Source: an uncultured Anaerolineales bacterium
GTDB lineage: Bacteria; Chloroflexota; Anaerolineae; Aggregatilineales; Aggregatilineaceae
Direction of reading: 5' to 3'
Length of the DNA stretch: 64,000 nucleotides
Assembly: GCA_937135955.1 (NCBI GenBank)
Contig: CAKZOB010000089.1
Span: 1-64,000 of the forward strand
Positions within the stretch are counted from its first letter, which is position 1; each line of letters opens with the position of its first letter. Made by a program: the position numbers and the translations under genes. Below the pieces are notes generated by a model that was not told where the DNA came from, did not search any database, and saw only the letters and a program-made list of their open reading frames with translations. Below are positions 1 through 39,083 of this stretch, piece after piece.

Positions 1-2128
1 CCGGGTCAACCGCCTGCGGGTCTACGCCAAAGAGGTGCACACTGGCCCGCGTTGTCGTGCTGCCAGGGTCGCCGACAACGTGCATCAGCGTCAGCGCCCC
101 CCTCACAGCGGGCAACTGATCCCAGCGCACATCCTGCGCGTTGAGCTGCGCCGGATCGAAGGTGATGCGCGCGCTGCTGCCGACCTCTTCGCGGGCTGCT
201 GTCCAGGCTCCCCGGTCGCGCGTATCGGAAATGCTCAGCGAAGCCGTACCCAGCGCCAGGGTCATGATCAGCAGCAAGACCAGCATGGCGTAATGCCCCG
301 GATCGCGGGCGACGCGCCACACCGCCAGGGGCGCGGTCAGGTGACGGGTGCGCTGCACCACCCGCGAGATGATTTCCATCAGCCAGGGGAAGAGGCGCAT
401 CCAGACCATGCCCAGCCCCAGCACAATCCCAAACACGGCGGGCACCGTATCGAGCACGAAGACAGGCAGGTTGTAGTCGCCGACGACGTGGTAGCTGCCC
501 CGCTCGGCAGCAAAGCTACCTCTGGTCAGTTCCTCGCTGATCTGCCCAATCACTTCGCCGGGGGCCGCCAGCAGATTTTGCAGCAGCACGCCGAAGTCGC
601 CGCCCACTAGGTAGTACAACCGCAGGACGAACAGCACGCCCACCGCCAGCGCCACGATGTCCAGATAGTAGCGCAACCACCAGGGCGTTTCTTTGGGACG
701 CGAAGCGATCTGCTTGAGCCGCGCCAGGCTCCGACGCGCGGCGGGCACGGCAGGCCAGGTCAGGCGCAGGATGATCGGCACGGTGATCAGCGCGCTGAGC
801 ACATACGAAACAGCAGGGATGGATATAGCCCCCAGCGAACGCCCGCCCAACGCTTCGGCCAGCGGGCCGTATTGTTCCATCAGGCGCAGAAAAACCACGC
901 TCAGCAAGGGGCCGAGCGCGAACCCCAGCAGGGCCAACAGGGTCACGGTGACCAGTTGCATCAGCACCAGTTGCAGGGCACTGCCCCCCCGGCTGACGAT
1001 GGTGCTCCATTCCTGGCTTTGCTGTTCCAGCACCAGGGCGGTGGTGCTGGCCAGGTGCTGTGCCATCAGCCCAGCGATGAGCGCCGAAAAGGCGATGATC
1101 ACCAGTTCGTTATCGGCCACATCGCCCGCATAGTTCTCCAGCAAGGCGGTCAGGCCAGTCAACACGCGCAGGCTGGGATGATAGGCCCCCAGTCGGTTTT
1201 GCAACAGGGCCAGCCGTTGCCGGTAGTGGTGAATGTTGTCGGCGGTGATGACATCCGTGTTGGTAGCTATCACATAAAAATAGCGGTTGCCGGGCGTCAC
1301 GTTCGCCAGCCAGTCGTTGTACGCTTCTGGGACGGTGGCGAATCCGAAGTCGTAGCGCATCTGGCCGGGGGCAATCTCCACTTCTGCCCCATACAGGAAG
1401 TTGCGGTTACCTTCCCAGAACGGGTCTTGCGGATTTTGGGGTTCGACGATGCCCACAATCACCACGCTGGCAACATTGCCGCTGCCATCAAGCTGTTTGG
1501 TGCCCACCACAAAGCGCTGTCCCACTTCCAGGTTGGCCCGGCGAGCCACCTCAGCCGTGACCACGATCTCCACCTGCCCGCGGTTGTAGAGGCCGATCTG
1601 CCGCGCCTGCTGTTCGGCATCGCTCAGGCCGGTCGGGTCAACGGCGTCGGGCGGGGGGAGACGGACGGGCCAGCGCCCTTCCAGCAACGTCAGGCGGGCG
1701 GGCATGTCGCTGAAGGCATAGGGCTGGAAGGTGTGATCCAGCCGCGTCGAGCGCGCCGTCACCGGCTCGCCATAGCGGTACATGTAGCCGCCAGTCGCCA
1801 GGCCAGCGGCATCTACGCCGCCTTCCGTGGTGGGCGGGGTATAGTCGGCGCGGATGAAAAAGGTGTAATCCGTCGCCAGCGGCCCCAGTTCCCGGCTCGC
1901 CACTTTCAGCGCGGCGGGCGAGAGCGGCTCGTCCTGAATCACCAGGGTGATCTGCAAATCCTGCGGTGCGGCCTGCTCCAGCGCGAAGCGCAACCCCACG
2001 CCCGTCACCGCGCGGATATAGAATGGCCCCAGCGCGAAAAAGCCCGTCAGCAGGCAGATGGCCAGCAACAGAATGGCCAGCGAGCGCCATTCGCGGCGCA
2101 TACGTTTGAGGATCAAGCCCAGAGTCAT
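1..2128 (-). CDS. FtsX-like ABC transporter permease, C-terminus cut by window edge
   Basis: An uninterrupted minus-strand frame runs from an ATG at 2128 to the left edge, giving about 709 residues without a stop. The protein starts MTLGLILKRMRREWRS, followed by a membrane helix at about residues 17-37 and a large extracytoplasmic segment of about 300 residues. Helix clusters follow near 340-430 and again near 490-640. This is the layout of MacB/FtsX-type permeases, which couple an ATPase to periplasmic or extracellular work such as lipoprotein release. It lies 30 bp behind the next permease and is probably co-transcribed with it. No ATPase gene is visible; it may lie left of the window. Substrate unknown. 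Confidence 0.8.
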   Translation of the reverse strand, partial: MTLGLILKRMRREWRSLAILLLAICLLTGFFALGPFYIRAVTGVGLRFALEQAAPQDLQITLVIQDEPLSPAALKVASRELGPLATDYTFFIRADYTPPTTEGGVDAAGLATGGYMYRYGEPVTARSTRLDHTFQPYAFSDMPARLTLLEGRWPVRLPPPDAVDPTGLSDAEQQARQIGLYNRGQVEIVVTAEVARRANLEVGQRFVVGTKQLDGSGNVASVVIVGIVEPQNPQDPFWEGNRNFLYGAEVEIAPGQMRYDFGFATVPEAYNDWLANVTPGNRYFYVIATNTDVITADNIHHYRQRLALLQNRLGAYHPSLRVLTGLTALLENYAGDVADNELVIIAFSALIAGLMAQHLASTTALVLEQQSQEWSTIVSRGGSALQLVLMQLVTVTLLALLGFALGPLLSVVFLRLMEQYGPLAEALGGRSLGAISIPAVSYVLSALITVPIILRLTWPAVPAARRSLARLKQIASRPKETPWWLRYYLDIVALAVGVLFVLRLYYLVGGDFGVLLQNLLAAPGEVIGQISEELTRGSFAAERGSYHVVGDYNLPVFVLDTVPAVFGIVLGLGMVWMRLFPWLMEIISRVVQRTRHLTAPLAVWRVARDPGHYAMLVLLLIMTLALGTASLSISDTRDRGAWTAAREEVGSSARITFDPAQLNAQDVRWDQLPAVRGALTLMHVVGDPGSTTTRASVHLFGVDPQAVDP

Positions 2129-31687: not shown

Positions 31688-31872
31688 ATTACCCACATCT
31701 TGAGCCGATGGCCCTCATCCCCCGGCCCCTTCTCCCGCGCTGCGGGCGAAGGGGAGCACGTAGCGAAAGAAAGTCAGTCCCCTCGCCCCGCGACGCAGTT
31801 GTGAGGGAGAGGGGATTAAGGGGTGAGGAGCGGCAGACTGCTGCAAATTGCCCGTCACATTTTGCACGCACC
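31688..31872 (+). repeat. Repeat B, copy 3
   Basis: Starts with CATTACCCACATCTTGAGCC (as at 46873) and runs through the same ordered words as copy 2, including AGCACGTAGCGAAAGAAAG and CGTCACATTTTGCACGC. It lies at the same place relative to the second paralogue as copy 2 does to the first. Gap 31620-32026 otherwise holds a terminator and a promoter. Confidence 0.78.
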
Positions 31873-31879
31873 CGAAAAA

Positions 31880-31909
31880 TTGTCCCCAGAACGATTTTGC
31901 GCATATACT
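31880..31909 (+). promoter_or_regulatory. Promoter of second exported paralogue
   Basis: TTGTCC at 31880-31885, an 18-bp spacer and TATACT at 31904-31909; leader about 110 nt. Confidence 0.55.
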
Positions 31910-32026
31910 GGGAAAAGAATCTGTTCCCACCGTCACAGAGCATCCCTTCTCAACAGATTGTCTTCCAACAAGGAGCGGATTCCCGTTTCTCTGACCCGCC
32001 AAGTGATAGCTGTAAAGGAGTCATTC

Positions 32027-33019
32027 ATGGCACGCATTCTACGCAAACTCTCGGTTCTGTCAGTCTTGTTGCTGGCCCTGGCGCTGGCCGTCCCTGCCCT
32101 GGCCCAAGGCGGCGATCCCTTGTGTAACGGACTGAGCGACGCCGACTGTCAGTTGTTGCTGAGCGTCAACTCGGCCATGACTGGCGTTTCGTCGTTCTCG
32201 ACGCCAGCCTGGGCGATTGACCTCACCCTGACGGACGGGACCCAGGAATTTAAGTTCAATGCCAGTGGATCGGGCGCATTTCAGTTCTCGCCAGGCGGCT
32301 CGCAATTGCTGGTTCACCTGATGATCGATCAGGCGTCGCTTGTCAGCCCCGAAGTCTCTCAGGCCGGGTCGGCGGAGATCATCGTGACCCAGGACATGGC
32401 CTATATCTTTTACAACGGGGAATGGTATGGCACTGAGGTGACGGAAGAAGACCTGAGCGGCCTGGGCGATTTCAGCAGCCTGGGGGGCATGATGGGTAGC
32501 GCTGGCGGTATTGGGGGCGCGGCTGCGGCAGCGGGCATTGATCTGACCGGCGTGCTCACCACCGCCCGCGGCGCAGATGAGCAGGTTGGCGGGCAGCCAA
32601 CGGCGACGTTCACCACCGACGTCAACGTAGGGCAGTTGCTGATCGCGCTGCTCTCCTCCCCCATGATTGGTCAGGCGTTGGGCATGGCCGGTGACGAGCT
32701 TGGCATGGAACAGATGACGCCCGAAGACATCCAGATGATGGGCATGTTCCTGACCCCTCTGCTGGGGCAGACCAAGTTATCGGTGAGCCAGTGGGTCGGC
32801 CTGAATGACAACCTGCTACACAAGCTCGCGCTGAACATGATCATTGACCTGCAGTTGGGCATGTTCGATCCAGAAGTCCCGCCGATCACGGGCAATATCT
32901 CGTTCACGACCGAGATCGGGGCCTTCAACGAGCCGGTGAGCGTGTCCGTGCCGACAAGCTACCGTCCGATTGAAGAACTGGAAGCGCAGTTCGAAGAACT
33001 GAGCGCCCTCATGGGATAG
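32027..33019 (+). CDS. Secreted protein, second of three tandem paralogues
   Basis: A 330-residue exported protein with a clear signal peptide (LSVLSVLLLALALAVPALA, cleavage before QGG). The mature start carries CNGLSDADCQLLLS followed about 25 residues later by PAWAIDLTL. The same words recur in the third paralogue. Strands and a Gly/Ala/Met-rich loop near residues 145-165 follow. The second half has LSVSQWVGLNDNLLHKLALN, matching the third gene's GMEQWIGAQDRYVHRLSL. AAAGGAG six bases before the ATG fixes the start; the frame upstream of it is repeat B. The two cysteines probably form a disulfide. Function unknown. Confidence 0.75.
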   Translation: MARILRKLSVLSVLLLALALAVPALAQGGDPLCNGLSDADCQLLLSVNSAMTGVSSFSTPAWAIDLTLTDGTQEFKFNASGSGAFQFSPGGSQLLVHLMIDQASLVSPEVSQAGSAEIIVTQDMAYIFYNGEWYGTEVTEEDLSGLGDFSSLGGMMGSAGGIGGAAAAAGIDLTGVLTTARGADEQVGGQPTATFTTDVNVGQLLIALLSSPMIGQALGMAGDELGMEQMTPEDIQMMGMFLTPLLGQTKLSVSQWVGLNDNLLHKLALNMIIDLQLGMFDPEVPPITGNISFTTEIGAFNEPVSVSVPTSYRPIEELEAQFEELSALMG

Positions 33020-33205: not shown

Positions 33206-34687
33206 ATGAACCGCCGACGCAGGATGTTAGCAGGCGTAGGGTTGCTGCTGGCACTGTTGATGGCGCTCGGCCCTACAGCAGTAGCCCTGGGGCAAGGCGG
33301 CGAGAAGCCGATCAACTGCAATGGATTGAGCGATGCCGACTGCCAGATACTGATTGACTCCACAGCGGCTATGCAGGGGTTGCAGTCGGTGACCATGCCC
33401 GAATGGGCGGTTGACCTCACAGTCACCACCGATCAGCAGACCATGGACGTGCACATGAACGGTTCTGCGGCGCTGCTGATCCCACCCTATGCGTGGACGC
33501 TGATCTCGGCGTTGCAGAATCTGTCCACGACGTTCGACCCGACAGTCCTCACGACCACGCTGCAACAACTGGATGCAGCGACGATGGTAGACCTGTTGCG
33601 CGCTCTGGGCCTGCACCTGAAGCTCGACGAGGTGCGCCTGCCCCAACAACCGAACCTGAGCGGGCCGATCGAGATCATCTTCAAGGACATGGGGCTATAC
33701 CTGCATGCCCCAACGCCCACTGGAGCAGATGCCTGGTTCGGTGAACCACTGGTGCTGTCGCCCGAAGACCTCAGCGAGGTAGAAACCAGTCTGCAGGAAG
33801 CGATAACAGGTCTGCAGAGCCAGGAGACACAACAGATGCTGGCGCAGCTTTCCGAGCTGTCCGGCCCGGTGCAACGGTTACAGGCCCTGATGGCCAGGTA
33901 TATCAGCACGACGCGCGGAGCAGACACCGTCTACAACGGGCAGACGATGTACACCTTCACCAGCACCTTCGATGTCAAGCGCTTCCTGGCCGATCCCGAT
34001 CTACCGCCTTTGCTGCTGGCCCTGCTGAAGAATCCGGCGCTGGCCACACTGGAACTCGACCTGGGGGACATCGAGACGCTCAACGAAGCACAGGTGCAGT
34101 TCGTGCTGATGACCGTGAGCCTGATCGTCACCGACGCGCGCCTCGGCATGGAGCAATGGATCGGGGCACAGGATCGCTATGTACACCGGCTGAGCCTCGA
34201 CCTGAGCCTCGATCTCAACCTGGCCCTGCTGGGCGAGCAGGCCGAAATGCAGACGGCCAGTGTACAGGGATCAGTCTACGCCTTGCTGGACAAGATCAAC
34301 AGCACCACCCTGGACACGGTGACCATCCCGGCCCACTACTACCCGCTGGACGAGAGCAGCAATTACCTGATTGGCACGCCCGATCAGGTCAAAGGGCCGC
34401 TGACGATGGGGCAGGTAGTCAGCGGGTCCTTCGTGAACGTGGACGAAATCGCCCGCGATCTTTACAGCCTGCCGCTGCGGGCTGGTGACACCGTGCAGAT
34501 CGCGCTGGTGTCGGAGGACTATCCCTATCTGCGCGTCTACGGACCCGATGGCTTCCTGGTAGAGGAGTTCGATACCTACTTCGAGCACAACGTGACCTTC
34601 ACGGCCCAGAAGACCGGCGTGCACCTGTTCGAAGTCTATGCCTACTGGGACATGGCCTACGAACTGACTGTGAGCGCCGGGCCATAG
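33206..34687 (+). CDS. Secreted protein, third paralogue with C-terminal extension
   Basis: A 493-residue exported protein with signal peptide (MLAGVGLLLALLMALGPTAVA, then LGQGG). It has the CNGLSDADCQILIDS and MPEWAVDLTV motifs shared with the preceding gene and the matching EQWIGAQDRYVHRLSL strand near residue 320. A C-terminal extension of about 110 residues (from GPLTMGQVVSGSFVNVDE to the end, with YPYLRVYGPDGFLVEEF and HLFEVYAYWDMAYELTV) looks like a PPC-type beta-sandwich. GGAGGAG before the ATG is a strong ribosome site. The 186-bp gap before it includes a terminator. Function unknown; surface or extracellular. Confidence 0.75.
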   Translation: MNRRRRMLAGVGLLLALLMALGPTAVALGQGGEKPINCNGLSDADCQILIDSTAAMQGLQSVTMPEWAVDLTVTTDQQTMDVHMNGSAALLIPPYAWTLISALQNLSTTFDPTVLTTTLQQLDAATMVDLLRALGLHLKLDEVRLPQQPNLSGPIEIIFKDMGLYLHAPTPTGADAWFGEPLVLSPEDLSEVETSLQEAITGLQSQETQQMLAQLSELSGPVQRLQALMARYISTTRGADTVYNGQTMYTFTSTFDVKRFLADPDLPPLLLALLKNPALATLELDLGDIETLNEAQVQFVLMTVSLIVTDARLGMEQWIGAQDRYVHRLSLDLSLDLNLALLGEQAEMQTASVQGSVYALLDKINSTTLDTVTIPAHYYPLDESSNYLIGTPDQVKGPLTMGQVVSGSFVNVDEIARDLYSLPLRAGDTVQIALVSEDYPYLRVYGPDGFLVEEFDTYFEHNVTFTAQKTGVHLFEVYAYWDMAYELTVSAGP

Positions 34688-37475: not shown

Positions 37476-39083
37476 CTACGAAGTGCCTTTGGTGCCGCCC
37501 GCATAGATGTTGAGCAGGTACTCCTGGGCGAAGATGAAGATGATGAAGACCGGAATCATCTGGTAGAGGCCCACCGCGGCGACCTCATTCCAGTTGACCG
37601 GCGCGGTGTCGCCCGTTAGTTGGGTGATGTAAACGGCGAGCGTCGCCGTCCGCGTGCCGACGCTGTACGTCTGCGGAATGAGGTAGGCTCCCCAGCCGGA
37701 GATGAAGGCGAAGGTGCCCAGCGCCAGGATGCCAGGGCGAATCTGCGGCAGCAGGATTTCCCAGAAGGTGCGCCAGCGCGACGCGCCATCAATCAGCGCC
37801 GAGCGCTCCATATCCCAGGGAATGTTGTCGAAGAAACCCTTCATCAGCCACACGCCCAAGGGCATCTCGAAGGCGACCATCACCAGGGCGATCCCGCCGC
37901 GTGTGTTGAAGCCGAAGTAATCGCCCAGCACCGGCACTTTGCCAATGTTGCGCAGTATGAAGAAGATGGCGATGAGCAGCGTCACTGCCGGGAAACCGTG
38001 CAGGATCAGCGTCAGCGACAGGAAAGCGCGGCGACCGGGGAAGTTCATGCGCGACAGGGCGTAGCCTGCCATCGAAGACACGGTCAGCACGATGATCGCC
38101 ATCAAGCTGGCGATCACCAGCGTGTTGAGCGTGATGCGCCAGATGCTGGGGTAGGAACTAGTGCCCGGTCGGGTGAGAAATTCCCAGTTGCGCAGCGTGA
38201 AGCCGCCGAAGTTCCCGCTGGCATCCACCGGCAGCAGGCCCTCGGTGCGGTACGAGAAGGTGGCGACGATCAACCACAGGTAGCCGACCAGCAGCGGGAT
38301 CATGATCACCACCATCAGCACATAGGGCGTCAGGCCGCCGGGCCAGAAGAGCGCGATCACCGCCAGGATCAGCGCCAGGATCAGCCCGCCGACCAACGGT
38401 GCCAGCCCGATCTCCATCACCGGCACCACTTCGACCGGCATCAATTCTTCCTGGCCGTCGCGCGAGACCCGCAGGCCGATCTTGCTCTCGAACTTCGCCA
38501 GGGCGATTTTCTCTTTGAGTTCGTCGGCAGTGGTGGGCGCGCGACCGATGGCAACAATGAGATCGCCAGCTTTGATCCCAGCCCGATCAGCCGTGCCGCC
38601 CGGCACCACGCCGGTGACCAGTACCCCCTCGTCCGTCTGGCGGAAGGACATCTCCAGAGATGGCTTTTCGGCGAACGGCCCCACCTGGAAGACGTACTGC
38701 CCCATGGTGACGAGCACGTAGACGATGATCGTCGCGGCGAGCGCAACGCGCACCGCGCGCCGCCGGTCGAAGGCGGCCAGTTCGCGCAGCCTGGCCCCAC
38801 AGGTCACATAGGCCGCGAAGGGGGCCAGCAAAGTCAGCGCATTGGCCAGGGCGCGTGTCAGCGTTTCGTCAACTTTCAGGTCGGAACCCCAAAAACGTGG
38901 CGAGGACTGAATCAGCGGCCCCAACACTTTGAACAGGACTACGCCTAGCTCGAAGAACAGCACCACCACCAGGGCGGTGAAGATGGCCTGCCCGACCAGT
39001 TCGCCCGTCTCGGCCTGGCGATAGCGATACTCCTGGCTGGTGAGCGGGCGCTGAGTGGGCGCGGAGGAGGTGAACGTTGCCAT
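37476..39083 (-). CDS. Carbohydrate ABC permease (MalG type) with embedded PDZ domain
   Basis: A 535-residue inner-membrane protein, nearly twice the usual length. An N-terminal extension with about four helices is followed at about 143-225 by a PDZ-like domain (EGVLVTGVVPGGTADRAGIKAGDLIVAIGRAPTT, split here by its GIKAGD carboxylate-loop motif, then IGLRVSRDGQE). Further helices come next, and from about 318 a standard MetI-type permease: LNTLVIASLMAIIVLTVSSM, the EMPLGVWLMKGFFDNIP helix and the EAA-type loop ALIDGASRWRTFWEILLPQIRPG. The ATG overlaps the stop of the upstream permease as TGATG. PDZ domains bind C-termini; its role in an importer is unexplained. Confidence 0.85.
   Translation of the reverse strand: MATFTSSAPTQRPLTSQEYRYRQAETGELVGQAIFTALVVVLFFELGVVLFKVLGPLIQSSPRFWGSDLKVDETLTRALANALTLLAPFAAYVTCGARLRELAAFDRRRAVRVALAATIIVYVLVTMGQYVFQVGPFAEKPSLEMSFRQTDEGVLVTGVVPGGTADRAGIKAGDLIVAIGRAPTTADELKEKIALAKFESKIGLRVSRDGQEELMPVEVVPVMEIGLAPLVGGLILALILAVIALFWPGGLTPYVLMVVIMIPLLVGYLWLIVATFSYRTEGLLPVDASGNFGGFTLRNWEFLTRPGTSSYPSIWRITLNTLVIASLMAIIVLTVSSMAGYALSRMNFPGRRAFLSLTLILHGFPAVTLLIAIFFILRNIGKVPVLGDYFGFNTRGGIALVMVAFEMPLGVWLMKGFFDNIPWDMERSALIDGASRWRTFWEILLPQIRPGILALGTFAFISGWGAYLIPQTYSVGTRTATLAVYITQLTGDTAPVNWNEVAAVGLYQMIPVFIIFIFAQEYLLNIYAGGTKGTS

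Follow-up and report, generated by a model that had tools for sequence, protein, structure and literature searches.

A MalG-type importer permease preceded by a membrane extension with a PDZ domain, conserved within one order of the Chloroflexota

The window analysed here, a stretch of 64,000 nucleotides from an uncultured member of the Chloroflexota, contains a complete importer operon whose MalG-type permease is a complete MalG-type subunit preceded by three transmembrane (TM) helices, a PDZ domain and a fourth helix. The usual picture of a type I importer is that of an invariant core served by a binding protein, and the permease belongs to a real and conserved variant of this known importer type, which is apparently undescribed: in the literature searched on PDZ together with permease, MalG, importer or Chloroflexi, no description of a PDZ-bearing importer was found, so that the impression of novelty given in a first-pass annotation of this DNA is borne out within that literature.

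The permease and its domains

The genes and domains are listed in Table 1. The permease ORF begins with an ATG overlapping the stop codon of the MalF gene by one base (TGATG). In its C-terminal part, the Pfam domain BPD_transp_1 is matched at residues 337-522 (E = 4.1e-15, 56.4 bits against a cut-off of 26.4), the NCBIfam MalG model aligns to residues 258-533, and residues 249-527 superpose on E. coli MalG (4ki0_G; VIA-align Z 17.3, rmsd 4.0, 257 residues aligned). Within the alignment of the EAA-type loop, E426, D432 and G433 are invariant. The BPD_transp_1 domain, the MalG fold with its EAA-type loop and the operon partners, by which a MalG-type (CUT1) permease is recognized, are thus all present. 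The scores against the MalG and UgpE equivalog models (112 and 67.8 bits) are both below the respective cut-offs (261 and 297 bits); judged from its sequence, the permease is a member of the MalG/UgpE family outside the E. coli MalG or UgpE equivalog in the narrow sense.

Table 1. Positions of the importer genes and of the parts of the PDZ-bearing permease in the window
Feature	Position	Strand	Basis or remark
MalG-type permease with N-terminal four-TM and PDZ extension, 535 aa	37476..39083	-	
Permease extension, residues 1-252	38328..39083	-	AlphaFold model and alignment
TM helices of the extension: TM1 26-53, TM2 73-97, TM3 107-133, TM4 227-245			AlphaFold model and alignment
PDZ domain, residues 142-222, between TM3 and TM4	38418..38660	-	Pfam; structural match to HtrA2/DegS/DegP PDZ
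MalG-equivalent part, residues 249-535, EAA-type loop ERSALIDGASRWRTFWEILLPQIRPG	37479..38339	-	Pfam, NCBIfam, alignment, structure match
MalF-type permease, 330 aa	39083..40075	-	Gene overlaps that of the PDZ permease by one base
Sugar-type substrate-binding protein (SBP_bac_1), 447 aa	40206..41549	-	Signal peptide, VASA^QE site, no lipobox cysteine
MalK/UgpC-type ATPase, 360 aa	36382..37464	-	

The PDZ domain is recognized by three Pfam models, PDZ_2 (E = 1.4e-8, residues 144-218), PDZ_6 (6.7e-8) and PDZ (1.1e-6), all above their gathering scores, and the same three models match 15 of 15 diverse extension sequences (E <= 0.001). In the AlphaFold model of the permease, which was built from 37 sequences and is of modest confidence (pLDDT 67.9, pTM 0.44), the PDZ strands and helix are placed at residues 145-218 and the MalG helices begin at residue 249. 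Residues 142-222 superpose closely on the PDZ domain of HtrA2 with its bound peptide (2pzd_A; VIA-align Z 14.1, rmsd 1.3, 78 residues aligned) and on that of DegS (Z 13.7), with rmsd values of 1.3-1.5 for the two. A 535-residue MalG-type permease with a PDZ domain in a long N-terminal membrane extension, as the first-pass annotation had described it, is therefore confirmed by Pfam, NCBIfam and structure matches, including hits for PDZ, PDZ_6 and BPD_transp_1, with the PDZ domain at about 144-218; the extension is indeed long, but the approximately 300 residues that had been placed before the core come to about 250 before the MalG-equivalent part, the Pfam core domain itself starting at residue 337.

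The likeness to known systems is divided among the parts of the protein. With E. coli MalFGK2 the permease has in common the MalG core, the EAA-type loop, the operon composition and the structure match over residues 249-527, whereas E. coli MalG has neither an N-terminal extension nor a PDZ domain. HtrA, DegP, DegS and HtrA2 provide the PDZ fold, with 26-29% identity over about 80 residues, but HtrA-type PDZ domains follow a serine protease, whereas the one described here is located between membrane helices; Pfam finds no protease catalytic domain in the permease, and its sequence has no HExxH motif. In OpuA and GlnPQ, an extra extracytoplasmic domain is likewise carried on the permease subunit, where it is the substrate-binding domain itself, while here it is a PDZ domain, and the structure match to OpuA is limited to the core.

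Distribution and origin of the extension

The extension is present over its full length in 49 of the 154 genomes of the host's order (profile search, E below 1e-56), belonging to three families and 12 genera, and it was not found elsewhere in a 400-genome sample of the phylum, where three matches cover the PDZ part alone; the two of these that were inspected are HtrA-type proteases, not PDZ-bearing permeases. Homologues at 50-94% identity have the identical architecture in tens of genomes, which excludes a sequencing or frame artefact and likewise rules out a chimera or a stray fusion. The earlier view of the locus as a complete importer operon and not a stray fusion holds, with the four operon genes and the conserved architecture in its support, and the survey of homologues that had been proposed as a check finds the extension retained and leaves no room for a frame error.

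About 45 related operons without the extension occur in other orders of the class. The permeases of the extension-less orthologous operons are about 270-300 aa long, with a core that is mostly 50-67% identical. On the core tree, the presence of the PDZ domain is explained by a single change in 99% of the bootstraps: the extension was gained once and, among the genomes searched, is confined to one order. Within the same order, genome G021 has an orthologous operon without the PDZ domain (L010, L206), whose permease is enlarged in another way, by some two membrane helices inserted behind MalG helix 1.

Operon, membrane topology and lipid anchor

On the minus strand, the genes follow in the order binding protein, MalF, PDZ-permease and MalK/UgpC-type ATPase. 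The MalF-type subunit has no large P2-like domain, since its length is only 330 aa. The top NCBIfam match of the ATPase is UgpC, slightly below the cut-off, and the top PDB match of the binding protein is SmoF, a sulfoquinovosyl glycerol binder; a glycerophosphodiester phosphodiesterase gene directly follows MalK in 24 sponge-associated loci, and our guess is a substrate with a glycerol headgroup. In these sponge-associated loci (L027, L029-L039 and L042-L053), a cobalamin-independent methionine-synthase-type gene is often next after the phosphodiesterase and a fatty-acid desaturase gene lies upstream of the operon. Elsewhere in the window, two adjacent genes on the plus strand (31823-33019 and 33206-34687) encode secreted proteins with a common CNGLSDADCQ motif near the N-terminus; they match no Pfam family, and relatives are found near the operon in L025.

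MalG has both its N-terminus and its EAA-type loop inside, and this loop sets the orientation of the core. As the extension adds an even number of predicted helices (four), the orientation of the MalG core would be unchanged, and a PDZ domain between TM3 and TM4 would then be outside the membrane. The charges of the loops agree with this topology, with an average of 2.6 K+R in the TM2-TM3 loop vs 0.2 in the TM1-TM2 loop, and the PDZ domain is net acidic. The domain is accordingly predicted, from the modelled helices, to be outside the membrane on the side of the binding protein.

Wherever the N-terminus of the binding protein is readable in the PDZ operons (26/26), it shows a cleavage site of the signal-peptidase I type and lacks a lipobox, whereas in the PDZ-less orthologous operons the lipobox is present in 30/30, usually followed by a long linker; two automatic exceptions were judged by eye, in L051 (the match precedes the start codon) and in L147 (the N-terminus is cut by the contig). 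This perfect association among orthologues, which would make the PDZ domain a substitute for the lipid anchor, is however confounded by an order-wide loss of the lipobox. In the host genome only one of 36 sugar-type binding proteins (loci L084-L119) has a lipobox, and none of the eight read in either G334, which has the PDZ domain, or G021, which has not; in other orders of the class, by contrast, these proteins are lipoproteins, with a lipobox in 7/7 and 6/7 of those read in two genomes (G049 and G124). About 35 other importers of the host genome hence run unanchored without a PDZ domain, and, anchor loss being a lineage trait and the PDZ gain a single event, the association weighs as one data point. 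Loss of the lipoprotein pathway does not explain the pattern, Lgt being present in 154/154 genomes of the order; the counts suggest that the way in which binding proteins stay at the cell has changed across the order. Two tandem, nearly identical binding-protein genes are also found in the host genome (contig C19, 24615-27602; L100 and L101).

Possible roles of the PDZ domain

Among the roles considered, we tentatively place docking first: the PDZ domain would be a module of MalG that receives a partner on the extracytoplasmic side, most likely the binding protein of the same operon. Recruitment of another protein partner and an internal structural role follow close behind. The MalG of a type I (maltose-family) importer would have acquired a four-helix N-terminal extension with the PDZ domain on the outer membrane face, where it would serve as a docking arm, holding a partner at the permease from the extracytoplasmic side; this partner would most likely be the soluble binding protein, gripped via its surface or a loop and not via its C-terminal tail, and the arm may have become useful where binding proteins lost their lipid tie to the membrane. 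Such an arm would be comparable to the MalF P2 loop of E. coli in role and not in descent: both are soluble permease domains of the outer face on the side of the binding protein, but P2 is inserted in MalF, whereas the PDZ domain lies ahead of MalG, with no sign of common descent. Judging by titles in the reference list of PMC8134467, MalF P2 has a part in transport activation. Docking is favoured by the PDZ and MalG fold matches, the charges of the topology, the single gain, the presence of the extension in 49/154 genomes of the order and its absence from the sample outside it, the retained PDZ fold residues, the lipobox-less partner and the short MalF, and is weakened by the lineage-wide lipobox loss, the variability of residue 140 and the modest confidence of the permease model. 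A narrower form, in which the PDZ domain specifically offsets the lost lipid anchor of the operon's binding protein, is rather unlikely: it draws on the perfect association across orthologous operons, which a single PDZ gain reduces as stated above, and the anchor has been lost across the order, including the PDZ-less G021 and nearly all other importers of the host genome.

The conservation of the domain bears on the remaining readings. Even among members with only about 30% identity, the PDZ fold residues are retained. The SLxM/F motif on the groove side is conserved, and residue 140 is basic (K/R) in 33/34 close members and variable in divergent ones. By analogy with HtrA PDZ domains, we read SLxM/F and residue 140 as the carboxylate side, and it is plausible that the putative groove is able to bind something. 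The retained motif, and the greatest likeness of the domain being to HtrA/Deg and site-2-protease PDZ domains, would suit recruitment of another extracytoplasmic or membrane partner (a protease, a cell-wall protein or a transporter subunit) by its C-terminal peptide, in the turnover or localisation of the importer; we consider this possible but doubtful, since no extra gene, protease or other, is common to the operon surroundings across all PDZ loci and the basic residue on the carboxylate side varies in divergent members. An equal degree of doubt attaches to a role of the extension in structure or assembly, in which the PDZ domain would pack on the permease and stabilise the complex without any external ligand. 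Conserved charged residues away from the SLxM motif (R181, R205 and R208 invariant, E211 nearly so) argue for it, as does the faster evolution of the extension, the mean column entropy being 0.87 in the PDZ domain vs 0.35 in the core, but the approximately 45 sister operons manage without it. Least probable is the earlier proposal of a gating role for the PDZ domain in transport, in which the binding protein offers its C-terminal tail as the ligand. A C-terminal R is more frequent in PDZ operons (43/49) than in PDZ-less ones (15/38), among closely related sequences; nevertheless, the [IV]xR ending is found in PDZ operons and many PDZ-less operons alike and is not distinctive, a terminal R is unusual in PDZ ligands, and the model of the binding protein shows the tail packed into the fold; this model is weak overall (pLDDT 59.7), and only its well-scored C-terminus (pLDDT about 88-94) was therefore used. 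The tail was rejected as a ligand on these grounds.

The operon may possibly represent a new class of type I importers, although we put this forward with hesitation. In such importers, the PDZ domain of the MalG subunit would catch a binding protein that has no lipid anchor, or some other extracytoplasmic partner, and would link transport to the presence of that protein; it would thereby take the place of a lipid anchor or of a docking loop like P2. A permease that contains its own peptide-recognition domain would recruit partners at the membrane in a new manner, and, in an order largely without lipid-anchored binding proteins, the question of how these are retained is open to simple deletion tests.
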